Shown: positions 21,516-32,204 of the stretch, piece by piece | Numbering within the stretch: position 1 is the first letter of the stretch | How the letters are laid out: each line of letters opens with the position of its first letter | DNA from: Candidatus Roizmanbacteria bacterium | GTDB lineage: Bacteria > Patescibacteriota > Microgenomatia > UBA1406 > GWC2-37-13 | Reading direction: 5' to 3' | Length of the DNA: 32,204 bases | Assembly (NCBI GenBank): GCA_013335175.1 | Contig: JAAXWC010000017.1 | Coordinates: 1 to 32,204 of the forward strand | The notes under the pieces: generated by a model | The model's input: the letters and a program-made list of their open reading frames with translations, nothing else | What the model was told of the DNA's origin: nothing | Database searches by the model: none | Program-made: the position numbers and the translations under genes

Positions 21516-22598
21516 TCAAATAGCGGATACTTTATTAATTGCAAGTTCTATATCTGACTTTTTTAATGGAAAACTTTGGGAAAGAGTGTGGCCAGATAGA
21601 ATATCCTCGAGTGTTTTTGCAAGTTCTGTAACTACTTTTGGGTCATTTTCTGTTTTGTAATTGTTTACTGCACTAATGAAATCAGAAATTCTTTGAGGCG
21701 GAACTTCGTCAAAAATTTTCATGCAATACATCGAAAGATTATATCTTCTCCAGTCATCAATAATTTCTGTGGAAAGTCCCATTTTTTTAAGTACTTCATG
21801 TTCAAAATATACCGCCCATCGTTCTTCATAACACATGTATTTTAACTTGCTTGTATTATTGTCAAATGTAATAGGATATTCACGATTAACCTCATCGTAT
21901 GAACTGGAATACCCTATTGTTCCCCTTAATTCTTTCATACTACCTGAAAAATCAAGAACATGTCCACGTTCATGTGCTATGTTAGTCGCGAGCAGAGATT
22001 TTAATAGACTTTCTGACATCTGCGTTTTCCCTATTCGGCATAATTTCAGTGCGATATAATAAGGAAAAATGAGATCAATCTTAACATTACGCGATTCTTT
22101 TGAAGCACTTGTATTAACATCCCATCCAAACTCAATATTTGCACTCTCTAAATCTGATGTAAGTAGGCCTTTCTGCTCCGAAGAAATATCTAAATCATTT
22201 ACACATGCAATAAGGCTATTATCTACTTGTTTGGCGAGTTCTAAAGCATCTATACCAAATTCGTTATACTGTTGTTCAATCATCTGCTTTTTCTCTTCCT
22301 TATTGTGATAGTAATCGTTCTCTTGAAAAAAATTTGGTGCTCCTTCTATGACACGTATTGCTTCTTGAGGATCAAAAGGGTTAGTTTTAAGTAGTGAGAG
22401 AGTATTTTCCATCCCTTTGCCAGCTTGTTTTCTTAGTCTTGGAGCTAAATCAGGATATTTTGCTTCTAAAGTATGGGGCAAAAGCATTGGGTAGCTTATT
22501 CTTCTTGTTTCAAGAATACATAAATTCTCAATCCGTTCCTCTGTATAGGCAGTTAAACTATCTTTTTGCTGGGGTTCATAATTATTTAGTATGTCCAT
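21516..22598 (-). CDS. Putative zinc metallopeptidase (HExxH), unrecognised family
   Basis: 360 aa. NIAHERGHVLDFSG (HERGH at residues 209-213) is an HExxH zinc motif, and about 46 residues later comes EERWAVYFEHEVL, whose Glu could be the third ligand of a gluzincin. The N-terminal ~200 residues are helical and charged. No signal peptide or membrane helix is visible, so it is likely cytosolic. The family is not recognised; the role is inferred only from the metal site. The start at 22598 is chosen because TAAAAT (22606-22611) lies seven bases upstream, making the in-frame ATG at 22622 untranscribed. It borders the repeat-flanked kinase block and could belong to it or not. Confidence 0.45.
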   Translation of the reverse strand: MDILNNYEPQQKDSLTAYTEERIENLCILETRRISYPMLLPHTLEAKYPDLAPRLRKQAGKGMENTLSLLKTNPFDPQEAIRVIEGAPNFFQENDYYHNKEEKKQMIEQQYNEFGIDALELAKQVDNSLIACVNDLDISSEQKGLLTSDLESANIEFGWDVNTSASKESRNVKIDLIFPYYIALKLCRIGKTQMSESLLKSLLATNIAHERGHVLDFSGSMKELRGTIGYSSSYDEVNREYPITFDNNTSKLKYMCYEERWAVYFEHEVLKKMGLSTEIIDDWRRYNLSMYCMKIFDEVPPQRISDFISAVNNYKTENDPKVVTELAKTLEDILSGHTLSQSFPLKKSDIELAINKVSAI

Positions 22599-22670
22599 AC
22601 CTATTATTTTACCACAAAACATATTTCACTGTTTCGATACCCATTTTTCCACTTGCTCAACCGCAATAAA

Positions 22671-22904
22671 TTCTTTCCCTTCATTTGTGGGGGTTGCGGA
22701 ATCTCCCTATGTGCGTGTATCGAAGAAGGCAAATTATTTCAAAAACATTTCCGGCGTAATAACCTCAATTTCTGGCAGGATAGGAATAGCTGGCTTTGAG
22801 TACAGTGTAATCAATTGGGCATTATTGCACTTTAGTGTTTCTTTTGCTTTTAACAGTGCCTTTATTTCACGTTGAACGGTATCGTTGTCAGAAAGATCAT
22901 AACA
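22671..22904. repeat. Left copy of a long direct repeat (234 bp visible)
   Basis: Matches 31971-32204 base for base at an offset of exactly 9300 bp, with three differences (22688 T/C, 22765 T/G, 22777 A/G). It holds the 3' end of the DUF4143-type ATPase gene and about 60 bp beyond it. The right copy is cut by the window edge, so the true repeat may be longer. Confidence 0.95.
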
Positions 22905-23226
22905 CACTTGATAGAGTGTGTCTGCCCTTCCATTAGTGAGGGACACAAAATCTACTTCTGCACCTTCCCGATCTCTATAGTAATGGAGTGTTTCACATTG
23001 TTGGGATAATAATCCATATATATAATTTTCAAATAATCGTCCATAATTTTTTGAGAACTTAGTGGTAAGTGCAGTTATGAAACCTGTATCTATAAAGTAA
23101 TTTTTACGAGGATATTGTAACTGATTCACTACCGACGGACTAAAAATATACAGTTCCTTCATAAAATAGGAAGACTCAATATATGAAATATAATTATCAA
23201 CCGTTGACAAGCCCAATAAACTTTTC
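22734..23226 (-). pseudogene. DUF4143-type ATPase gene, C-terminal half only
   Basis: About 163 residues remain: KSLLGLSTVDNYISYIESSY, then YFIDTGF, GRLFENYIY and YYRDREGAEVDFVS. These are the hallmarks of the C-terminal part (DUF4143) of the AAA_14 ATPases, where family members have ~400 aa with an N-terminal P-loop domain. That N-terminal half is absent. The frame is closed by TAG at 23226-23228, where the promoter of the next plus-strand gene begins. No sensible start codon exists (a TTG at 23216 only), so the gene is probably dead. A second, near-identical copy begins at the right edge of the window and may be intact. Confidence 0.8.
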
Positions 23227-23232
23227 TATAGT
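23204..23232 (+). promoter_or_regulatory. Strong promoter of the 347-aa paralogue
   Basis: TTGACA (23204-23209), a 17-bp spacer, TATAGT (23227-23232), and eight bases to the ATG at 23241. The -35 lies inside the truncated ATPase gene. Confidence 0.75.
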
Positions 23233-23240
23233 TACTGCAT

Positions 23241-24284
23241 ATGAGTGAAAATGGATCAGAACTAAACAAAGAACCTATTGTTAACACAGAGAGGGAGAAA
23301 GCTGTTCAAGAGCTTGTGGATTACGGGGAGTTGCTTTTTTCTTCTGAACAGTTGTTTATACGAGGGAAAGAAGAACAAAATAAAGTGAAAGAAACGCTCC
23401 TATCTCAGATGGACTCTGAAGAACGGGAATACCAAAAAAAGAACGGAAGAGAAGAGCCCGAGTTAGATATCAACCTTGATGACGCTATGGTAGACATGGC
23501 ATGTGGGTATAGCAGTAGCTATGAAATTCCGGGGACAACAATGACGTATGCAGAAGGTCGAGAACAGTTTTGGGCGGAACCGGAAGGAGATTCCACGTCT
23601 TCTGAACTTCTGGGATTGATGCAGTTGTTTTATGGTAAAAAAGATACACAAAATGAGCTTGGAATGATTGTCAGGGGGTTAGAGAGTGGAGATGGAGCAC
23701 TTGCTACGTTTGTTCAGAAACAGGGCGAGAAAATGATTGAACTGTCTGAAACTGAGGAAACTTCCCCAACTGAGGGAAATAGTGAACTATTCTTGTATCC
23801 AACAGGTGTCTCTACCATCTTTGAGAGAATTGACGAACACATAAAAGAATCACGTATGAAAGAACAGAATAGTGATACTCTGGCTCGATCTTTAACAAAT
23901 TATGTTGCTGAGCTTCCGTATGCTGATAAGTTACGTTTACTCGCCATTCTGAAGCATTCCTTTGGAGGATTGAAAATGATGGTAGAGCAAAATATGCCTC
24001 AAAATATGCCAATAAAAGGGTCAAAAGCAAACAACTCTGTAGAGCGTATATATAGGTATGGTGGGCGCAATAGCTTGCCCGAATTCAAGACCTATCTCCG
24101 AGAAACACTGAAGATCACTAATCCGGACACCCTATGTCTTCTTTCGGCTGCAATCCCACATCCGTCTTTAACAAGAGATGATTGTCTGTTAGAACTGAAA
24201 AGAACAGGTATTGTAAATCACGAAGGAAATTTACAAGTGAAGCCTGATGTCACATTGACTCAGGTTGCAAACATGCTTGTCTAG
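23241..24284 (+). CDS. Unknown protein, paralogue of the 323-aa protein in the same block
   Basis: 347 aa, not recognised. No signal peptide, membrane helix, cysteine cluster or catalytic motif is visible; it is acidic and mostly helical. Near the N-terminus EPIVNTEREKAVQEL and IRGKEEQ match EPIVNTEREQAVAVL and VQGKERQ of the gene at 26691. Further matching pieces are LPYADKLRLLAILKHSFGG against VPPGDRMRLLGMLEQAFGG, and the C-terminal LTQVANMLV against LENIVDTIVV. This copy has an extra ~70-residue insert (residues about 60-130) with many acidic residues. It may be a substrate or partner of the giant kinase; this is inference from location only. It is convergent with the 603-aa gene. Confidence 0.6.
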   Translation: MSENGSELNKEPIVNTEREKAVQELVDYGELLFSSEQLFIRGKEEQNKVKETLLSQMDSEEREYQKKNGREEPELDINLDDAMVDMACGYSSSYEIPGTTMTYAEGREQFWAEPEGDSTSSELLGLMQLFYGKKDTQNELGMIVRGLESGDGALATFVQKQGEKMIELSETEETSPTEGNSELFLYPTGVSTIFERIDEHIKESRMKEQNSDTLARSLTNYVAELPYADKLRLLAILKHSFGGLKMMVEQNMPQNMPIKGSKANNSVERIYRYGGRNSLPEFKTYLRETLKITNPDTLCLLSAAIPHPSLTRDDCLLELKRTGIVNHEGNLQVKPDVTLTQVANMLV

Positions 24285-24363
24285 GATAGAACGCGAAATA
24301 TCCTATATCCATTTTGATCTACATGAGATGCTCGTTTTTGTGTGGTGAGTTTATAGATGGGTT

Positions 24364-26175
24364 TTATGTATTTTCTTCTTTCTTTGTTGGGAATAACTTC
24401 AATAGCTCTACCACTTCATTGGCATTGATTACGAGGTGTTCTCTTGCTTCACGGGGATCCATTCGTGAAGTAGGTTGGTTTTCACTGGGTAAAAATTTAT
24501 TCTCCGCTAATAACTCAATTTGTTTGTCTACTTCTGTTTTGTATTTTACTATGGTTTCTCTTTGATCATCCGTCATTGCCGAAAACATTTTGCCGTTAAG
24601 ATCTTGAATGAGAAAGGAAATAGGTGATGTGATTTGAGAGAGTGGTAATGCGGGTAAATGTACATCATCTATAGAACCAATCGCTATTTCCAGCATATCC
24701 ATGAGAACGGGCATCAGGGCGTCTGGGTCTGCTTTTCGGCACTGGGCTGAAATATGTGACACAATGTTTGCTTTAAGATTCTCTGTAAGATGAATGTCTT
24801 TTCCCAAAGTAACAAGTTCATTATATGCGGTTTGATTAATTCGTTTTTCTTCATCACTGATGCGGATTCTTTTTACCAGTCCAGAAAACATTTTTTGAGA
24901 TGGACTCAATAGTGTTTTAAAATCAGGACAATCGCTCACTACTTGGAGTTGCTCAAACAAAAATTGATTCTCTAACTCAGCGATTGGTTGTTGTTGTTTT
25001 TGGCGCTCAGCAATGGCATACAGTTGATCACCTGCGCGACTACTGCCATAAAGGAGTGCTCCGAGTGTTTTAAATACCGTGGGATCGGAATCGGTGGTTA
25101 TCTCGTCTAAGGTATCAAGAAGCCATAGTTGAATTTCTCCTCGTGAAGTAGCAAAGGGGTTTATTTCCTCAAATGCATCACATGATTCGCGAACTAACGT
25201 TTCCGCCTTATCAACAATTTCGTGATCAGGCAAAACAAGGGCAGCTTTAATCATTTTCCACCTAGTAGTAGGGAATCTTTTTGCAGCGTATTCTGCCATA
25301 ACAGGGTTTAACTTCTTTTCACCCAAAGAAGTGACAATGGGCCCGTGAAGTCGGTATGCATCTAATATGCAGAGTAGGTCATTTTTTGCAAGTGCGCGCT
25401 CGGAAGGATTATTTGTTAAGTGATTATAGGCACGAATGATATCATAAAAAGACCGTGTTTTTTTGTCAAAGTCTGTTTCCAAGTTGGGAGAACGAGGGTT
25501 AAGAGCAGTTATTGTTGAGACAAGTGCTTCGTGTGCAATTTCACTGTCAGAATATGCAATGAGTTCGCCAACATCGGGACGAGCAGACAAACCATCAAAA
25601 AAACCGTGAAATTCGTTCAGTCGAGTCTCTTTAGCGAGTAATGCTTCAAAAATAGGTGATGAGGCGAGGGGAACAGGACCCCTTGGAAGATAGTCACCGG
25701 TGAACGCATTTCTCAGCCTTTCAGAACTAGCTCTCCAACTATCGGTGCTATACCATGTTTTAAAAATAGTGTAGAGCTTTTCATTTTTCATCAAATTATC
25801 TAAAAATAATTGAGAAAGTGAATTTGCTTCTTGTGTATACACCTCAACTGGATGTGTTTCGTCGAGTTTATGCCCAACAGCTTCTGTAAGTCCTTCGATA
25901 AGTGCCCTTTCAATCATTTGATCATCTCTTTTTTTTGATGCGGAACGAACAGAAATTGTCGTGCCCTCGGCAGTTTCTTCTTCTGAAGAAACAATGTCTT
26001 TTCCGTTGTTTTTTAATGCCTTGACACTCGATTTTACCCAAACTATATCGAACGGAGAGCCTGTTGTCAAACTATAAATTTCAGTTTGAACCTTTTGAGT
26101 TTCATCGGGGGGAAGAGCTAAAGGTGATTCAGTTTGCTGTATCTGTTGGCTTGCCTCAGGATTTGATTCTGCCAT
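24364..26175 (-). CDS. Large unknown protein of the kinase block
   Basis: 603 aa, not recognised. The N-terminus is Gln/Pro-rich and disordered; the rest looks wholly helical with repeated short helices and no obvious membrane segment. No P-loop, kinase, peptidase or zinc motif is visible. It is the only minus-strand gene of the block and convergent with the 347-aa gene. TATACT (26184-26189) lies eight bases before the ATG, with a possible TTGCAT -35 (26206-26211, 16-bp spacer). Base composition is like its neighbours. It could be a scaffold; nothing in the sequence proves a role. Confidence 0.6.
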   Translation of the reverse strand: MAESNPEASQQIQQTESPLALPPDETQKVQTEIYSLTTGSPFDIVWVKSSVKALKNNGKDIVSSEEETAEGTTISVRSASKKRDDQMIERALIEGLTEAVGHKLDETHPVEVYTQEANSLSQLFLDNLMKNEKLYTIFKTWYSTDSWRASSERLRNAFTGDYLPRGPVPLASSPIFEALLAKETRLNEFHGFFDGLSARPDVGELIAYSDSEIAHEALVSTITALNPRSPNLETDFDKKTRSFYDIIRAYNHLTNNPSERALAKNDLLCILDAYRLHGPIVTSLGEKKLNPVMAEYAAKRFPTTRWKMIKAALVLPDHEIVDKAETLVRESCDAFEEINPFATSRGEIQLWLLDTLDEITTDSDPTVFKTLGALLYGSSRAGDQLYAIAERQKQQQPIAELENQFLFEQLQVVSDCPDFKTLLSPSQKMFSGLVKRIRISDEEKRINQTAYNELVTLGKDIHLTENLKANIVSHISAQCRKADPDALMPVLMDMLEIAIGSIDDVHLPALPLSQITSPISFLIQDLNGKMFSAMTDDQRETIVKYKTEVDKQIELLAENKFLPSENQPTSRMDPREAREHLVINANEVVELLKLFPTKKEENT

Positions 26176-26183
26176 ATGTTAAA

Positions 26184-26211
26184 AGTATAGATCGTTTGTT
26201 CAATAATGCAA
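26184..26211 (-). promoter_or_regulatory. Promoter of the 603-aa gene
   Basis: TTGCAT, 16 bp, TATACT, eight bases to the ATG. Confidence 0.5.
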
Positions 26212-26261
26212 GATCAAATATAATAATTATTCAGAAGTTTCCAAAGGAATGGCACCCTAAC

Positions 26262-26620
26262 AGTGGTCATTTCGTCATCCCCGCGTAGGCGGGCGACCGC
26301 AGGAAGTCCCCGTATAAAGTACCCTCGTCGAGGGAGATCCAGTGTAAAAATGTTCTTTGCTTCAAAAAGAATGGCGGCCTGCCACTCGAAGTCTCCCCGC
26401 ACATGCTCGACATCCGTTCATCGTGCGCCACCTATTTTTTTCGAGACCCGGTGGGTTCCCTCCCTGCGGGCGATCCCAAGTCTCTCAAAAAAAGGATGGC
26501 ACGCTAAGGAGTAGCAACGTCACTCCCGCTTGCCGGGAGTCGTTGTTATCCGCACTGTCATTCCGTCCGGAATGACAGGTATCAGCTCGCCATGACGGCG
26601 AAACCCGAGACCACTAACGA
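26262..26620. repeat. GC-rich mosaic of hairpin modules in the 515-bp gap 26176-26690
   Basis: Begins with a partial copy of the CCCCGCGTAGGCGGG stem of the 6.45-kb repeat, includes the 34-bp module shared with 16914-16947, and has a 7-bp stem hairpin (26522-26540) and a perfect 10-bp inverted repeat TGTCATTCCG-TC-CGGAATGACA (26556-26577). It separates two divergent promoters. No credible gene lies in the gap. Confidence 0.85.
26489..26522 (+). repeat. 34-bp module identical to 16914-16947
   Basis: The two copies read the same over all 34 bases, from AAAAAGGATGGCACGCTAAG to the final GTCA. Confidence 0.9.
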
Positions 26621-26653
26621 TTTTGTTTTATCTTGAATAATTACCAAATATGT

Positions 26654-26682
26654 TTGACATGAAAGGAGTATTTTATTATAGT
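26654..26682 (+). promoter_or_regulatory. Strong promoter of the 323-aa paralogue
   Basis: TTGACA (26654-26659), a 17-bp spacer, TATAGT (26677-26682), eight bases to the ATG at 26691. The layout is identical to that of the 347-aa paralogue. A purine-rich GAAAGGAG lies within the spacer, too far upstream to be a ribosome-binding site. Confidence 0.75.
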
Positions 26683-26690
26683 TTCAGCAT

Positions 26691-27662
26691 ATGAATGAAT
26701 TTAATCAAAATGCAGAACCTATTGTAAATACAGAACGAGAACAGGCGGTAGCAGTACTAAAAGACTATGCAAAAATACTTACTCACGCTCAGGATATGTT
26801 TGTGCAAGGTAAAGAAAGGCAACTGCAAGGACAAAATGGGGTGAGTGACGTAGATAAAGAAGTAACCAATAAATTAACACATATTCTTAGCGTATGTGGC
26901 GGAGAACCTGCACGAAAACATATGAAAAATATGGTTAATGACATTCAAAATAAAGATGACGCATTGTGGAAATATGTTTTGGATCGTGGAGATCAAATGC
27001 TTATGTTATGTCGTACTGGAGAGGCAAAGCCATTGAGTGGTCACGCGCAACTTTTTGAAAAACCAGAAAATGTACAGTTACTCTTAGGATTGGTGAATTG
27101 CCACATAAGAGATAAAAATGATGGCCTTGAATATCTTGAACACAGTATTAATAGGGTTCCCCCCGGTGATAGAATGAGATTACTCGGGATGTTAGAACAA
27201 GCATTTGGAGGCGTTCAAGTTATTGAAGATAATAAGGTCAGTGAAGATACTCGGTATTCACTACTTAAGGGTAATTCTAGCTATTCAGTGGGATGGGTTA
27301 TGGATGTAGGAAGTAAGTATATGTCCCGTGGCACGATTGATTACTTTAGGAATACGTATGGTATAGTTGATCAAAACGTATTGAATCTTATTGCGAGTGC
27401 ATTCCCATCTGAAATTACCCATGACAGGTCTGAAACATTAGGAAAGTTGGTAGGAGCAGGGTTATTGAAAGAAGTGCACCAAGCAGCAACTTCACATCAG
27501 GACAATACACAGCAGTCAAAAGGGCCGATGGATTCATTAAAGGGGTGGCTTCAAAGGCGAAAAGAAAAACCTTCATCTGAATCTCAGGCCGTTATAAAGC
27601 CTACGTATTCATGGAAAATAGAGCCTACTCTGGAAAATATAGTGGATACAATAGTCGTGTAG
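26691..27662 (+). CDS. Unknown protein, paralogue of the 347-aa protein
   Basis: 323 aa. It aligns with the 347-aa protein along most of its length: NAEPIVNTEREQAV at the N-terminus, the middle ALWKYVLDRGDQMLMLCRTG against ALATFVQKQGEKMIELSETE, a VNCHIRDKN against IDEHIKES, and the LRLLxxLxxxFGG block. It carries a C-terminal addition rich in Gln, Ser and Lys (residues about 265-300) lacking in its paralogue. No catalytic motif, no membrane segment. It precedes the giant kinase by 161 bp on the same strand, but that gene has its own TTGACA promoter. A role as a kinase partner is inference from location only. Confidence 0.6.
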   Translation: MNEFNQNAEPIVNTEREQAVAVLKDYAKILTHAQDMFVQGKERQLQGQNGVSDVDKEVTNKLTHILSVCGGEPARKHMKNMVNDIQNKDDALWKYVLDRGDQMLMLCRTGEAKPLSGHAQLFEKPENVQLLLGLVNCHIRDKNDGLEYLEHSINRVPPGDRMRLLGMLEQAFGGVQVIEDNKVSEDTRYSLLKGNSSYSVGWVMDVGSKYMSRGTIDYFRNTYGIVDQNVLNLIASAFPSEITHDRSETLGKLVGAGLLKEVHQAATSHQDNTQQSKGPMDSLKGWLQRRKEKPSSESQAVIKPTYSWKIEPTLENIVDTIVV

Positions 27663-27786
27663 TTGTTTTTTGAAATTGGATTTTGCACATGCCAAGTACC
27701 GCAATGGTATCGTGCGGTGCGGTTTTGTGAACTTAAAAAAATAGCTCTGAACGCTTAAATGGCGATGTATTTCTATGTATTACGCA

Positions 27787-27819
27787 TTGACAAACCGTAC
27801 CTCTTTCCTTCATTATTAT
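27787..27819 (+). promoter_or_regulatory. Promoter of the giant kinase gene
   Basis: TTGACA (27787-27792) followed by 18 bp and CATTAT (27811-27816; an alternative -10 is TATTAT at 27814-27819), seven bases before the ATG at 27824. Upstream at 27698-27720 is a short CCGCA/TGCGG hairpin. Confidence 0.55.
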
Positions 27820-27823
27820 ATCC

Positions 27824-30800
27824 ATGGTATCAGGTAATGAATCCGCACCCAAATCTTCAGAATTTTCTCCCGGTGTAGTCAGAGAAAGAATTGGTGAGCA
27901 TCCGGATATTGCACCTTTGCTGTATACCGTTTTTTCAGAAGATAGTATGAAGATTGCTCAGACACTTGCAGAGCAGCCTGACTCTGATATCACGTTGCAC
28001 TTTCCTAGTAGAGGCCAGCTTGAACCAGTTGTAAAACATTTTAAAGATATAAAAACACGTGTCACTCAGTTTTTGGACACCCAAAAAGGTGTTGTATTGC
28101 TGGAACCACTGATAAAAGATGGAATAGAAGTAAAAGAACTTCAGACTTCTGATGAAGCATCTCGCGAGTTAGCCAAAACAATGCTCATCGACGCAATCCC
28201 CTGCAATCAGGGGCAATCTCTGGACGATGTTCAGGTTGGACTTGAAGTATGGGCTGGCACCACAGTCGCGATCCGTTTTGATACCAGTGATGAAGGGATT
28301 GAGGCATATAAAAAAGTACTAGGAATTACGTTTCACAATCCTGATGGAACCGAGATTACGGATCCGCAAGTCATAAAGAGTCGAGTACTTCGATATCCGG
28401 GTTTTACTGTTGAACGGGATAATTTTAGTAATGAGTTCAGAAAACAGTTTCAAGGGGATGTGGTTGTGATGTTGGGCGACAATGCTAAGGTTCGCCAGCA
28501 TGAAACTCAGGAAGTTATCCAGCATTTTGCTGACTACCAGGCAGAACAATTTTTAGTTGGTAAAGATTCTTCTTTCGCCTTTCCTTTGCATAATCTTACG
28601 CCGAAAAAAGTATCTGAACTCCTGCTATCTGATGATGAAACGGTATATCAAACCTATGGAAAATCGAAAGAAGTGCTTATAAATGAAATAGAAGCTTTGA
28701 CACCCTCTCAGATCGCCTGGTCTATCGCACGCGGTAAGTTAGCACACTTTTGTGCAGATATCTCACTTGAGAATTCACCGCAGATGCAGGGAGTTTTGCA
28801 AAATCAAGATGTACATTTTTATCAGGATAGAACTTTCAGAACCGATGGGATGAGTTTGGAACTTGCAAAAAAACTGGGACAGGGATATGAAGAGGCAACC
28901 CTTTTAATGAAATACATAAAAGAGGCAGCAATTCAGCATATTGAATACGGGAAAGAACCTAAGAGAGTAGCTTCATTAATACGCGCCTACACAATTAACC
29001 CTGCTGAGTTTTTAGCGCACCAGGCTAAAGATGCCTATCAAGAATATATAAAACAAAGAGAATCAGTCCAAAATAGATGGGATGCGGTTACTACTTTAGT
29101 TCAGGTAGAAGAAATATTTGAAGCGATAAGACCTCAGGAAGGTTTGGGAACGATAGATATTGAGACAAAAGTGGAAGGAAGATTTATTCATGATGAGGGT
29201 ACGCTTCGCGTTGGTGAGGTGATAAAAACGCCAATGTTATCGAATGAGCTGATTGTATTAGGCCCCTTAGGACAAGCGCAACAGGGTGGCATGTCGGGAG
29301 CCTATTTTGCTGTAAGCTGCCGGGAAATTTCAGGTAATAATCCCGATCTGAAAGAATATGAGGTTATAAATAAACAAGGAAAAATGACAGGACTAAAGGT
29401 TATCGCACCCATACATCGACAGCCCTATGTCGTTGATTCAACAGGCAAACAGTTTGCTCTTTCAGAACTGAATACCCTTCCCGATGTAAATAAATATTTT
29501 GTAAAGGAAGCTACAACCGAGTCCAGGGGAGGTGATCGATTGATCCATCTGGCTACAGGAGGTTACTATGATAGTAGAGAGTATCGACAGATGCAATTGG
29601 AAGGTGTTGATGATCTATTTTCACAATTTAGTGAACCGGTGCAATCGCAATTTATATCGCGACGTAATGCACAATTAGAAGCACTCATTCGTACTATACG
29701 AAGCGATTTTAAGGATCATCTTACCGATTCATCTCAAGGGAAAAAAACGATTGGTCAGCTCATACAAGAAACCGAACAAGACGCTAGCAAAGCTCTCGTT
29801 TTAGGTCAATTATCTGCTTCACACAAAATAGAGACTTTTAGAAAACTGAGAGAACTTCACAGTACCCTAATGAAAGGTGTATCAGATTACACCAACGAAA
29901 AAATTGTGCCTCCGGTGCAACGGGTGGCGCACCGGTTTCAGAGGGAAGTATTAAATGCGGCAACATTTTCCAATAGAAAGGGCTTAGGTTTAGCGACATT
30001 TATCGTGCCGCTCCGAGACATGAGTATCTTCTCCGATCCTACCATCCCTCAAACAGAGCCATCTGCCCACCGCATGTTTCTGGTTTCAGACTACATTCCC
30101 GGAGCCCAGGATGCAAATACCTTGTTAATGAACGGAAGGAAATTCACCCAGAGAGATGTACTCACGATAGCTCGATGTATGACAACGGCCTTAGAAGCGA
30201 TCGAACAAAATGACATTGTTCATCGAGATGTAAAACCGGCAAATATTTTAGTAGTGCTAAACCCGGATGGTTCAGTTGCTACTGCATATCTTACTGATTT
30301 TGGGATCGCCAACACTGTAGGAACCGAAACTATCGATGTAGATACCATGGCGGGAAAATCTGCATATAGCGGTACAGAAGCGTTTGGTTCGAAAGATTTT
30401 GCTGCTCCCGAGCAGCGGGATGCTCGCTTAGCAACCACCATGGATATTCACGGATTGGGTGCAACTTTGTACGCACTGGTAACCGATGAAAGCGTTTTTT
30501 ATAAGTCAGGGCCGGATCGCGAGGCAGCTTTAATTGCTACATTAACGAAAAATAATATTGATCCTCTATTTGCTGGGTTAATTGCAAGCATGGTGCGATT
30601 AGATCCAAAAGATCGACCTCAAAGTTTTGGTATTATAGAAAAGGCTTTACATCAGCTGGAAAATTCTCACCTGATGGTAGATGTAGATCCCAACTATACC
30701 GTGGAAGAGTTTCAAAAATTACAATCGGTCGATGAAATTCGTGAGTTTTTCCGTGAGGCATTTATTCCCCCTAATCTAGATCGTGTCAAAATGTTTAGCT

Positions 30801-31966
30801 CTCTTGCAAAATTATTTGCAGACAATCAACACAATGATATTTTCCCCGGTTCCCTTGCTAATCTGAGAGAGGCATTGATGCAGGCATTACGTAATGATTA
30901 TCGACCTGATCTCGACTATTCCAATTTTAAGTTATCAGTAACAAACTCATCTCATTCGTTACTCCCAGGAGAGTTTTCTGCTCTTCGGTGGTATGTACAT
31001 TTGTATGATAAGCTGGTTACTCTTGCTCAGGCGGGGAAGTTAGGCACCTTTCAAGGTGTTCAAAAACCGGTAACAGATGCTTTATCTAATCTTCTTGGTA
31101 AGTCATTTTTGTATACTTCCATTGAGGACAAAGCCTTTTTATCGCAAGCGGAGTTATTAACCTATGGTTCACCATACGCAGTAACAAAATACATCTCTCG
31201 TAATGATATTTCACTTGATGATTTGAGTTCCGCTTTGAAAAATATTCAAGAAAGCCAGGATGATTTGAATAAACCATCCATTTTCCCCCCAACAAAATCT
31301 AAACTTGAGGAAATTATGAATACAAATAGAGGGTTAATAGTAGCTGAAATGTATGAGCGAATAAAGGCTCAAAACATGCAACGAGATGGATCACTCCCGT
31401 TTCGTATTGTCATTGACCCTAAAGTTGAAAGTTCATGGAATGAATTAATACCGGATGCAAACCATACGAAATGGCCAATAGACTATTCTATAGATGCAAT
31501 CGCGAAACAAATTGCAAGTTCTTCTATAAGAAATAATGACAAAGAAGCATTGTATCGTCAATGGAAACCGTTAATTGAAGCTCGTATTTGGATTTCCGGT
31601 CATCGGGAAGATTTTTCTGGTTATCCGTTCAGTATAGCGGGAGCGAAGTATGAGGAGAGAGTAAATGAAATTGTAAAAAGTTATGATACCGTTTTTTCCT
31701 GGATACATCGTATTGCAAAAATGGTAAACCCCTATCAAAAAGAAGATGGCAGCTTAAACATTTTTACTATTGAAGCAGCAAAGCAGTTCCATAGAAATTT
31801 TAGCCAAGCGCGCCGAACATTTTTAGATACATGGGAACAGGAACTATCTAAAAGAAAATCAAAATTCTTACGTGCCTATTCTTTATCGAAGGATAAAGAA
31901 ATAGTGGATGTTTTAACACTTAAAAATGTGATCGGTGAAAACATTGAGGACCTATTCAAGATTTAG
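27824..31966 (+). CDS. Giant Hanks-type Ser/Thr protein kinase with large inserts
   Basis: 1380 aa. The kinase C-lobe is complete and canonical: HRDVKPANIL (H800, R801, D802, K804, N807), DFG (825-827), APE (861-863), D874 of DIHGLG, and R931 in KDRPQS. The N-lobe is odd. A likely glycine loop lies at 480-492 (GPLGQAQQGGMSG) and the candidate ATP lysine is K561 (YFVKEATT), leaving about 70 residues between them; over 200 residues then separate that Lys from HRD, where about 100 is normal. The first ~450 residues and the last ~430 belong to no family I know. No membrane helix, PASTA, or other sensor repeat is visible, so it is likely cytosolic. It ends just before the right direct repeat. Phosphotransfer activity is probable, since the catalytic residues are intact; substrates are unknown. 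Confidence 0.85.
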   Translation: MVSGNESAPKSSEFSPGVVRERIGEHPDIAPLLYTVFSEDSMKIAQTLAEQPDSDITLHFPSRGQLEPVVKHFKDIKTRVTQFLDTQKGVVLLEPLIKDGIEVKELQTSDEASRELAKTMLIDAIPCNQGQSLDDVQVGLEVWAGTTVAIRFDTSDEGIEAYKKVLGITFHNPDGTEITDPQVIKSRVLRYPGFTVERDNFSNEFRKQFQGDVVVMLGDNAKVRQHETQEVIQHFADYQAEQFLVGKDSSFAFPLHNLTPKKVSELLLSDDETVYQTYGKSKEVLINEIEALTPSQIAWSIARGKLAHFCADISLENSPQMQGVLQNQDVHFYQDRTFRTDGMSLELAKKLGQGYEEATLLMKYIKEAAIQHIEYGKEPKRVASLIRAYTINPAEFLAHQAKDAYQEYIKQRESVQNRWDAVTTLVQVEEIFEAIRPQEGLGTIDIETKVEGRFIHDEGTLRVGEVIKTPMLSNELIVLGPLGQAQQGGMSGAYFAVSCREISGNNPDLKEYEVINKQGKMTGLKVIAPIHRQPYVVDSTGKQFALSELNTLPDVNKYFVKEATTESRGGDRLIHLATGGYYDSREYRQMQLEGVDDLFSQFSEPVQSQFISRRNAQLEALIRTIRSDFKDHLTDSSQGKKTIGQLIQETEQDASKALVLGQLSASHKIETFRKLRELHSTLMKGVSDYTNEKIVPPVQRVAHRFQREVLNAATFSNRKGLGLATFIVPLRDMSIFSDPTIPQTEPSAHRMFLVSDYIPGAQDANTLLMNGRKFTQRDVLTIARCMTTALEAIEQNDIVHRDVKPANILVVLNPDGSVATAYLTDFGIANTVGTETIDVDTMAGKSAYSGTEAFGSKDFAAPEQRDARLATTMDIHGLGATLYALVTDESVFYKSGPDREAALIATLTKNNIDPLFAGLIASMVRLDPKDRPQSFGIIEKALHQLENSHLMVDVDPNYTVEEFQKLQSVDEIREFFREAFIPPNLDRVKMFSSLAKLFADNQHNDIFPGSLANLREALMQALRNDYRPDLDYSNFKLSVTNSSHSLLPGEFSALRWYVHLYDKLVTLAQAGKLGTFQGVQKPVTDALSNLLGKSFLYTSIEDKAFLSQAELLTYGSPYAVTKYISRNDISLDDLSSALKNIQESQDDLNKPSIFPPTKSKLEEIMNTNRGLIVAEMYERIKAQNMQRDGSLPFRIVIDPKVESSWNELIPDANHTKWPIDYSIDAIAKQIASSSIRNNDKEALYRQWKPLIEARIWISGHREDFSGYPFSIAGAKYEERVNEIVKSYDTVFSWIHRIAKMVNPYQKEDGSLNIFTIEAAKQFHRNFSQARRTFLDTWEQELSKRKSKFLRAYSLSKDKEIVDVLTLKNVIGENIEDLFKI

Positions 31967-31970
31967 TAGA

Positions 31971-32204
31971 TTCTTTCCCTTCATTTGCGGGGGTTGCGGA
32001 ATCTCCCTATGTGCGTGTATCGAAGAAGGCAAATTATTTCAAAAACATTTCCGGCGTAATAACCGCAATTTCTGGCGGGATAGGAATAGCTGGCTTTGAG
32101 TACAGTGTAATCAATTGGGCATTATTGCACTTTAGTGTTTCTTTTGCTTTTAACAGTGCCTTTATTTCACGTTGAACGGTATCGTTGTCAGAAAGATCAT
32201 AACA
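31971..32204. repeat. Right copy of the long direct repeat
   Basis: Identical to 22671-22904 but for three bases. It continues past the window edge. It begins within five bases of the stop of the giant kinase gene. Confidence 0.95.
32034..32204 (-). CDS. DUF4143-type ATPase, C-terminal end (cut by window edge)
   Basis: 56 residues plus the stop codon, read on the minus strand. They match the truncated copy at 22734 except for L-to-P and E-to-A changes in the segment SKPAIPIPPEIAVITPEMF. The rest of the gene is beyond the window, so it may be the intact parent of the left fragment. Family members are predicted ATPases often present in many copies in CPR genomes; their function is not settled. 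Confidence 0.75.
   Translation of the reverse strand, partial: CYDLSDNDTVQREIKALLKAKETLKCNNAQLITLYSKPAIPIPPEIAVITPEMFLK

Follow-up and report, generated by a model that had tools for sequence, protein, structure and literature searches.

The window analyzed here, 32,204 nucleotides long, is one whole contig (C40) of the 1.45-Mb genome of a Candidatus Roizmanbacteria bacterium, a member of a class with genomes of approximately 0.5 to 1.8 Mb; the -10 box survey and the kinase promoter motif count given below cover 1.24 Mb of the genome. The block at positions 23209 to 31966 contains four open reading frames (ORFs) side by side, as originally predicted: paralogue 1 (347 aa), a 603-aa gene, paralogue 2 (323 aa), and a giant kinase (1,380 aa), which we call copy A. 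All four proteins appear to be soluble. The maximum 19-residue Kyte-Doolittle mean ranges from 0.8 to 1.3, and we found no hydrophobic segment in any of them, in agreement with the original reading that none has a visible membrane segment. Each gene forms a transcription unit of its own; both strands are used, and the promoters are of three kinds. Because their GC and GC3 values match those of housekeeping and other host genes, and because an interspersed host repeat lies inside the block, the block does not look freshly foreign; both observations argue against a recent foreign origin. Just outside the block's left flanking repeat (R), a gene of low GC3 (21516 to 22622, minus strand) encodes a possible metallopeptidase of 368 aa, which contains an HExxH motif (HERGH) and has no Pfam match. 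Coordinates are collected in Table 1.

Table 1. Features of the kinase block and its borders (positions in the window; R, direct repeat)
Feature	Position	Strand	Remarks
Left copy of R (AAA_14/DUF4143 ATPase gene 3' end and downstream flank)	22667-23208	.	542 bp
gpmI 3' end copy, reverse orientation	22667-22706	.	40 bp; 92.5% identical to C4:4331-4370
5'-truncated AAA_14/DUF4143 gene, C-terminal 160 aa only	22734-23216	-	Pfam DUF4143 4.5e-16, profile positions 45-157 of 160
Paralogue 1 promoter	23204-23232	+	TTGACA-17-TATAGT; first five -35 bases inside R
Paralogue 1, 347 aa, soluble, predicted helical	23241-24284	+	without known family
603-aa orphan protein gene	24364-26175	-	own leaderless promoter; -10 TATACT at 26184-26189
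LexA/SOS-box-like operator GAACAAACGATC of 603-aa gene	26190-26201	-	14 nt before ATG
Interspersed host repeat, noncoding, between 603-aa gene and paralogue 2	26224-26645	.	pieces of ~77-100% identity on many other contigs
Paralogue 2 promoter	26654-26682	+	TTGACA-17-TATAGT
Paralogue 2, 323 aa	26691-27662	+	without known family
Kinase copy A promoter	27786-27823	+	31/38 identical to copy B promoter
Giant Hanks-type kinase, copy A, 1,380 aa	27824-31966	+	Pfam Pkinase and motifs
Copy A N-terminal region, residues 1-440	27824-29143	+	63% identical to copy B; without known family
Copy A kinase region, residues 480-950	29261-30673	+	HRDVKPAN 800-807, DFG 825-827, APEQ 861-864
Copy A C-terminal region, fast-diverging	30674-31963	+	36% identical to copy B; without known family
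Right copy of R, cut by contig end	31967-32204	.	starts directly after kinase stop codon

The identification of the 1,380-aa protein as a kinase was borne out by a match to Pfam Pkinase (7.1e-21, passing the gathering score) with intact motifs. The HRD-K-N loop (H800 to N807), DFG (D825 to G827), and APE segment (A861 to Q864) are conserved in copy A and in a second copy, B, described below, and in copy A they align with those of PknB and related Hanks-type kinases. A candidate G-loop (GGMSGAY, residues 488 to 494), K561, and E708, all assigned by eye, are also conserved in both copies; the Pkinase profile match in copy A begins downstream of these three elements, and the structure model is of low confidence. 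The N-lobe is interrupted by long insertions, and the AlphaFold model of the kinase core has a pLDDT of only 38. The profile match and the motifs make copy A a Hanks-type Ser/Thr kinase, whose activity is predicted. Unlike PknB and its relatives, it has unique N- and C-terminal regions in addition to the N-lobe insertions, and unlike the PASTA kinases (PknB/Stk1), it has neither a hydrophobic segment nor a PASTA match, and it scores 69 bits versus a cutoff of 450 for that family. A single weak match of the N terminus to MukF (E value of 0.006) was not used. Hanks-type kinases are uncommon among the relatives of this organism, occurring in 8 of 92 genomes, this one included (E value of ≤1e-8).

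We also detected a second full-length, in-frame kinase (copy B) elsewhere in the genome, 53% identical to copy A and located between ileS and a gene for a 1,414-aa nucleotidyltransferase-like protein. The latter (L009:11349-15593, minus strand) owes its label to a GSTGR...DxDxD motif seen by eye, and relatives of its C-terminal half occur in giant proteins (frames of 1,486 to 2,050 aa) in three other genomes of the class. Neither a partner paralogue nor a homologue of the 603-aa protein was found in the neighborhood of copy B, and it follows that the kinase needs no such partners at its own locus. Identity between the copies is uneven: 63% in the N terminus, approximately 67% in the kinase core, and 36% in the C terminus, a pattern that suggests a common input and different outputs.

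The 38 bp immediately 5' of the two kinase start codons are identical at 31 positions in an ungapped alignment, the best score in 87,571 pairwise comparisons of leaderless promoters (next best, 27/38), and the motif TCATTATTATATCCATG occurs at the genes for copies A and B only within the 1.24 Mb. Upstream of the promoter, identity drops to chance (5/22 and 12/40), and at fourfold-degenerate sites of the two genes it is approximately 33%, which equals saturation. Since the promoter has been kept despite saturated silent sites, copies A and B look coregulated; the simplest reading of these comparisons is that purifying selection acts on a common kinase promoter, which would imply coexpression.

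In a survey of 715 ORFs with a minimum length of 200 aa (1.24 Mb), a strong -10 box lay 6, 7, or 8 nt before the ATG in 106, 45, and 47 ORFs, respectively (approximately 10 at distant offsets), and a Shine-Dalgarno-like sequence preceded only 19. Genome-wide, we counted 44 instances of the arrangement TTGACA-N16-18-TANNNT-N5-10-ATG versus 6 of a reversed control. Leaderless promoters are thus the rule in this genome.

Paralogy of the two smaller proteins was confirmed by blastp (E values of 7.7e-23 in a 12-protein set and 3.3e-13 genome-wide), and both carry the EPIVNTERE(K/Q)AV N terminus in a nearly invariant segment. Their matched promoters (TTGACA-17-TATAGT-8-ATG) are likewise present as described. 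The original prediction took this match to suggest coordinated expression; as a pointer to a module, we do not retain it: the same architecture is found across the genome, the promoters of the kinase and 603-aa genes differ from it, and the promoter that is in fact conserved is that of the kinase and its distant twin. The match between the paralogues speaks only of genes that were probably duplicated along with their promoter. A third gene with a similar promoter, encoding a probable cation/proton antiporter, was treated as a chance occurrence. The AlphaFold model of the partner proteins is of low confidence (pLDDT of 41).

The promoter of the 603-aa gene points in another direction. Its operator-like element, GAACAAACGATC, matches the LexA-type operator of this genome at seven of eight core bases. 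Boxes of the GAAC-N4-GTTC type lie between -35 and -10 at lexA (L111:15979-16545; Pfam S24; box GAACGATAGTCC), rarA/MgsA (L049:9576-10784; box GAACGATTGTTC), and a dinB-type operon (L094:15982; box GAACGTTTGTTC), in which the DinB-type polymerase, identified by eye, is in the next frame. A gene for a 620-aa probable membrane protein (L102) has a perfect box of this type too. The 603-aa gene resembles this regulon in the position of its box, the core of which ends 14 nt 5' of the ATG, as in lexA and rarA (15 nt in the dinB-type operon), and its promoter matches that of rarA at 25 of 38 positions, among the top five pairs. It differs in that one of the eight core bases of the candidate operator is mismatched, although the box of lexA itself likewise has one mismatch. 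Approximately 1.3 chance box matches were seen per offset (4,106 candidate starts); a box at such a position in this particular gene is unlikely to be a chance match, even if the observation was post hoc. The 603-aa protein is probably induced by DNA damage via LexA.

Profile searches of the uncharacterized proteins, an approach proposed originally, recognized the kinase core and returned no known relative for the rest. No homologue of the N- or C-terminal region of the kinase was detected in 96 relatives, 373 genomes of the class, or 371 genomes of the phylum, and the phylum-level matches span the kinase core only. The paralogues have no homologue outside their own genome in sets of 72 genomes and of 373 class genomes, and the 603-aa protein has none in the 373 class genomes. 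Genome contigs, viral contigs, phages, and plasmids yielded none of the orphan parts; sensitive searches covered the class (for the kinase, also the phylum) and these broad collections were searched with short exact patterns, which distant homologues could escape. Weak matches of the partners and the 603-aa protein (E values of 0.002 to 0.2) were short and were not reproduced. Comparing the profiles of the four block proteins with one another and with the 1,414-aa neighbor of copy B revealed no hidden relationship. A genome of the same family encodes a 2,823-aa protein (L040:31-8502), apparently a fusion of a glycosyltransferase-like region with a kinase domain; beyond the kinase core, neither this giant kinase nor the giant nucleotidyltransferase-like proteins have anything in common with copy A. 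No homologue of the orphan parts turned up in approximately 370 class genomes, and we read the block as a lineage-restricted kinase island.

Repeats mark the borders of the block. Positions 22667 to 22904 and 31967 to 32204 form a 238-bp direct repeat (98% identical), and positions 23110 to 23208 are 100% identical to the 99-bp end of contig C4 (5,332 bp), diverging from 23209 on. The AAA_14 part of the ATPase gene lies on C4, together with gpmI, ruvC, and a Mutator-family transposase. The 40-bp gpmI 3' end recurs at 22667 and 31967, as well as at C4:4331-4370 within the gpmI coding end (...EIPQPPQMKGK), so that these direct repeats include one in the end of a host gene. The block starts within the paralogue 1 -35 box (between TTGAC and A) and ends at the kinase stop codon. 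From the overlaps, the gene order would be gpmI, full ATPase gene, kinase, paralogue 2, 603-aa gene, paralogue 1, truncated ATPase gene, and the HERGH protein gene; the junction through R comes from contig overlaps rather than reads, with a 205-bp stretch separating the contig ends.

Since repeats bound the block, they support its arrival as one piece, for example by recombination through R. The gpmI-end direct repeats on either side of the block and the ATPase gene recall genomic islands at the 3' ends of housekeeping genes. Unlike such islands, the block has no integrase, and the long R, being an ATPase gene end, fits homologous recombination better; searches of the block proteins against Pfam, PHROG, and NCBIfam found no integrase, recombinase, or other mobility gene at meaningful scores. 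Since the AAA_14/DUF4143 gene itself has copies of the gpmI 3' end on both sides (L052:4331-4392), this end of gpmI may be an insertion hotspot.

We tentatively favor, at a probability of roughly 40%, a lineage-restricted kinase island that came as one piece next to the AAA_14/DUF4143 ATPase gene at the gpmI 3' end. The conserved N-terminal ~440 residues of copy A would probably sense the input and the fast-evolving C-terminal ~430 residues would probably select targets, while the nearly identical dedicated promoter of copy B would probably place A and B under one signal with different targets. Candidates for the targets or effectors of copy A are the two small helical paralogues and the 603-aa protein; a phospho-link between the kinase and these partners is a plausible hypothesis. 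The idea of a four-gene module is plausible, but it loses its promoter argument, and the block borders that take its place are indirect evidence: the genes do lie together, they have no known relatives outside the kinase core, and the repeats suggest arrival as one block.

A competitor, which we consider just as probable as the island, is that there is no system at all and that four unrelated lineage-specific orphans (a stand-alone kinase, tandem-duplicated paralogues, and an independent SOS gene) gathered next to gpmI, at a site prone to insertion. The truncated ATPase gene, host repeats, and gpmI-end repeat mark such a site, the promoters are separate and of three kinds, and copy B lacks partners. 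The last point also bears on the original suggestion that homologues failing to co-occur would count against a module: the sole kinase homologue, in the same genome, has no partners alongside, which goes part of the way against a module, and with zero homologues found in the class, co-occurrence cannot be shown. However, R bounds the block exactly, from the -35 box of paralogue 1 to the kinase stop codon, which favors transfer in one piece. The same repeat raises the possibility of a 9.3-kb circular or Campbell-integrated mobile element, with R (542 bp) as the integration homology and the chromosome and circle misjoined by the assembler through R. R has two entries (the HERGH protein gene side and the kinase) and two exits (paralogue 1 and contig C4), the contig breaks inside it, the contig graph permits a circle of exactly 9,300 bp, and an SOS-like operator at the 603-aa gene would fit element induction. 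We nevertheless regard such an element as unlikely, given that no replication, transfer, or recombination protein was recognized, that a host interspersed repeat lies within the block, and that the assembler chose the linear path.

The original guess of a defense-like module fared less well. The kinase domain matches the PADLOC models for mad6 (8.7e-27) and PD-T4-6, so that copy A resembles MADS Mad6 and PD-T4-6 in being a soluble kinase with these as its best defense library matches, and for the truncated ATPase, there is a PADLOC match to the candidate system PDC-S01 (9e-32). However, the kinase matches are limited to the core (residues ~700 to 963) and reach 74 bits versus the NCBIfam cutoff of 460 for MAD6. 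Moreover, neither of the paralogues, the 603-aa protein, nor the HERGH protein matches any PADLOC defense model, unlike what would be expected of MADS. The PADLOC, NCBIfam, and PHROG matches reflect a generic kinase fold only, and we consider a kinase-based antiphage module like those of Mad6 or PD-T4-6 very improbable. Also unlikely is a mobile, SOS-responsive kinase cassette, possibly the 9.3-kb circle, with its own kinase architecture, dedicated substrate paralogues, and a host twin kinase on the same promoter signal; if this were true, the cassette and the twin would make up a two-kinase phospho-signaling system so far unknown outside the lineage.

Returning to the lineage-restricted island, the clean flanking repeats would offer a testable route for the spread of such orphan genes. 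The genome-wide use of leaderless promoters makes regulons directly readable, as in the LexA case. The retention of two giant soluble kinases with a single conserved promoter, despite divergence to saturation, points to a signaling function that is maintained in a reduced genome.
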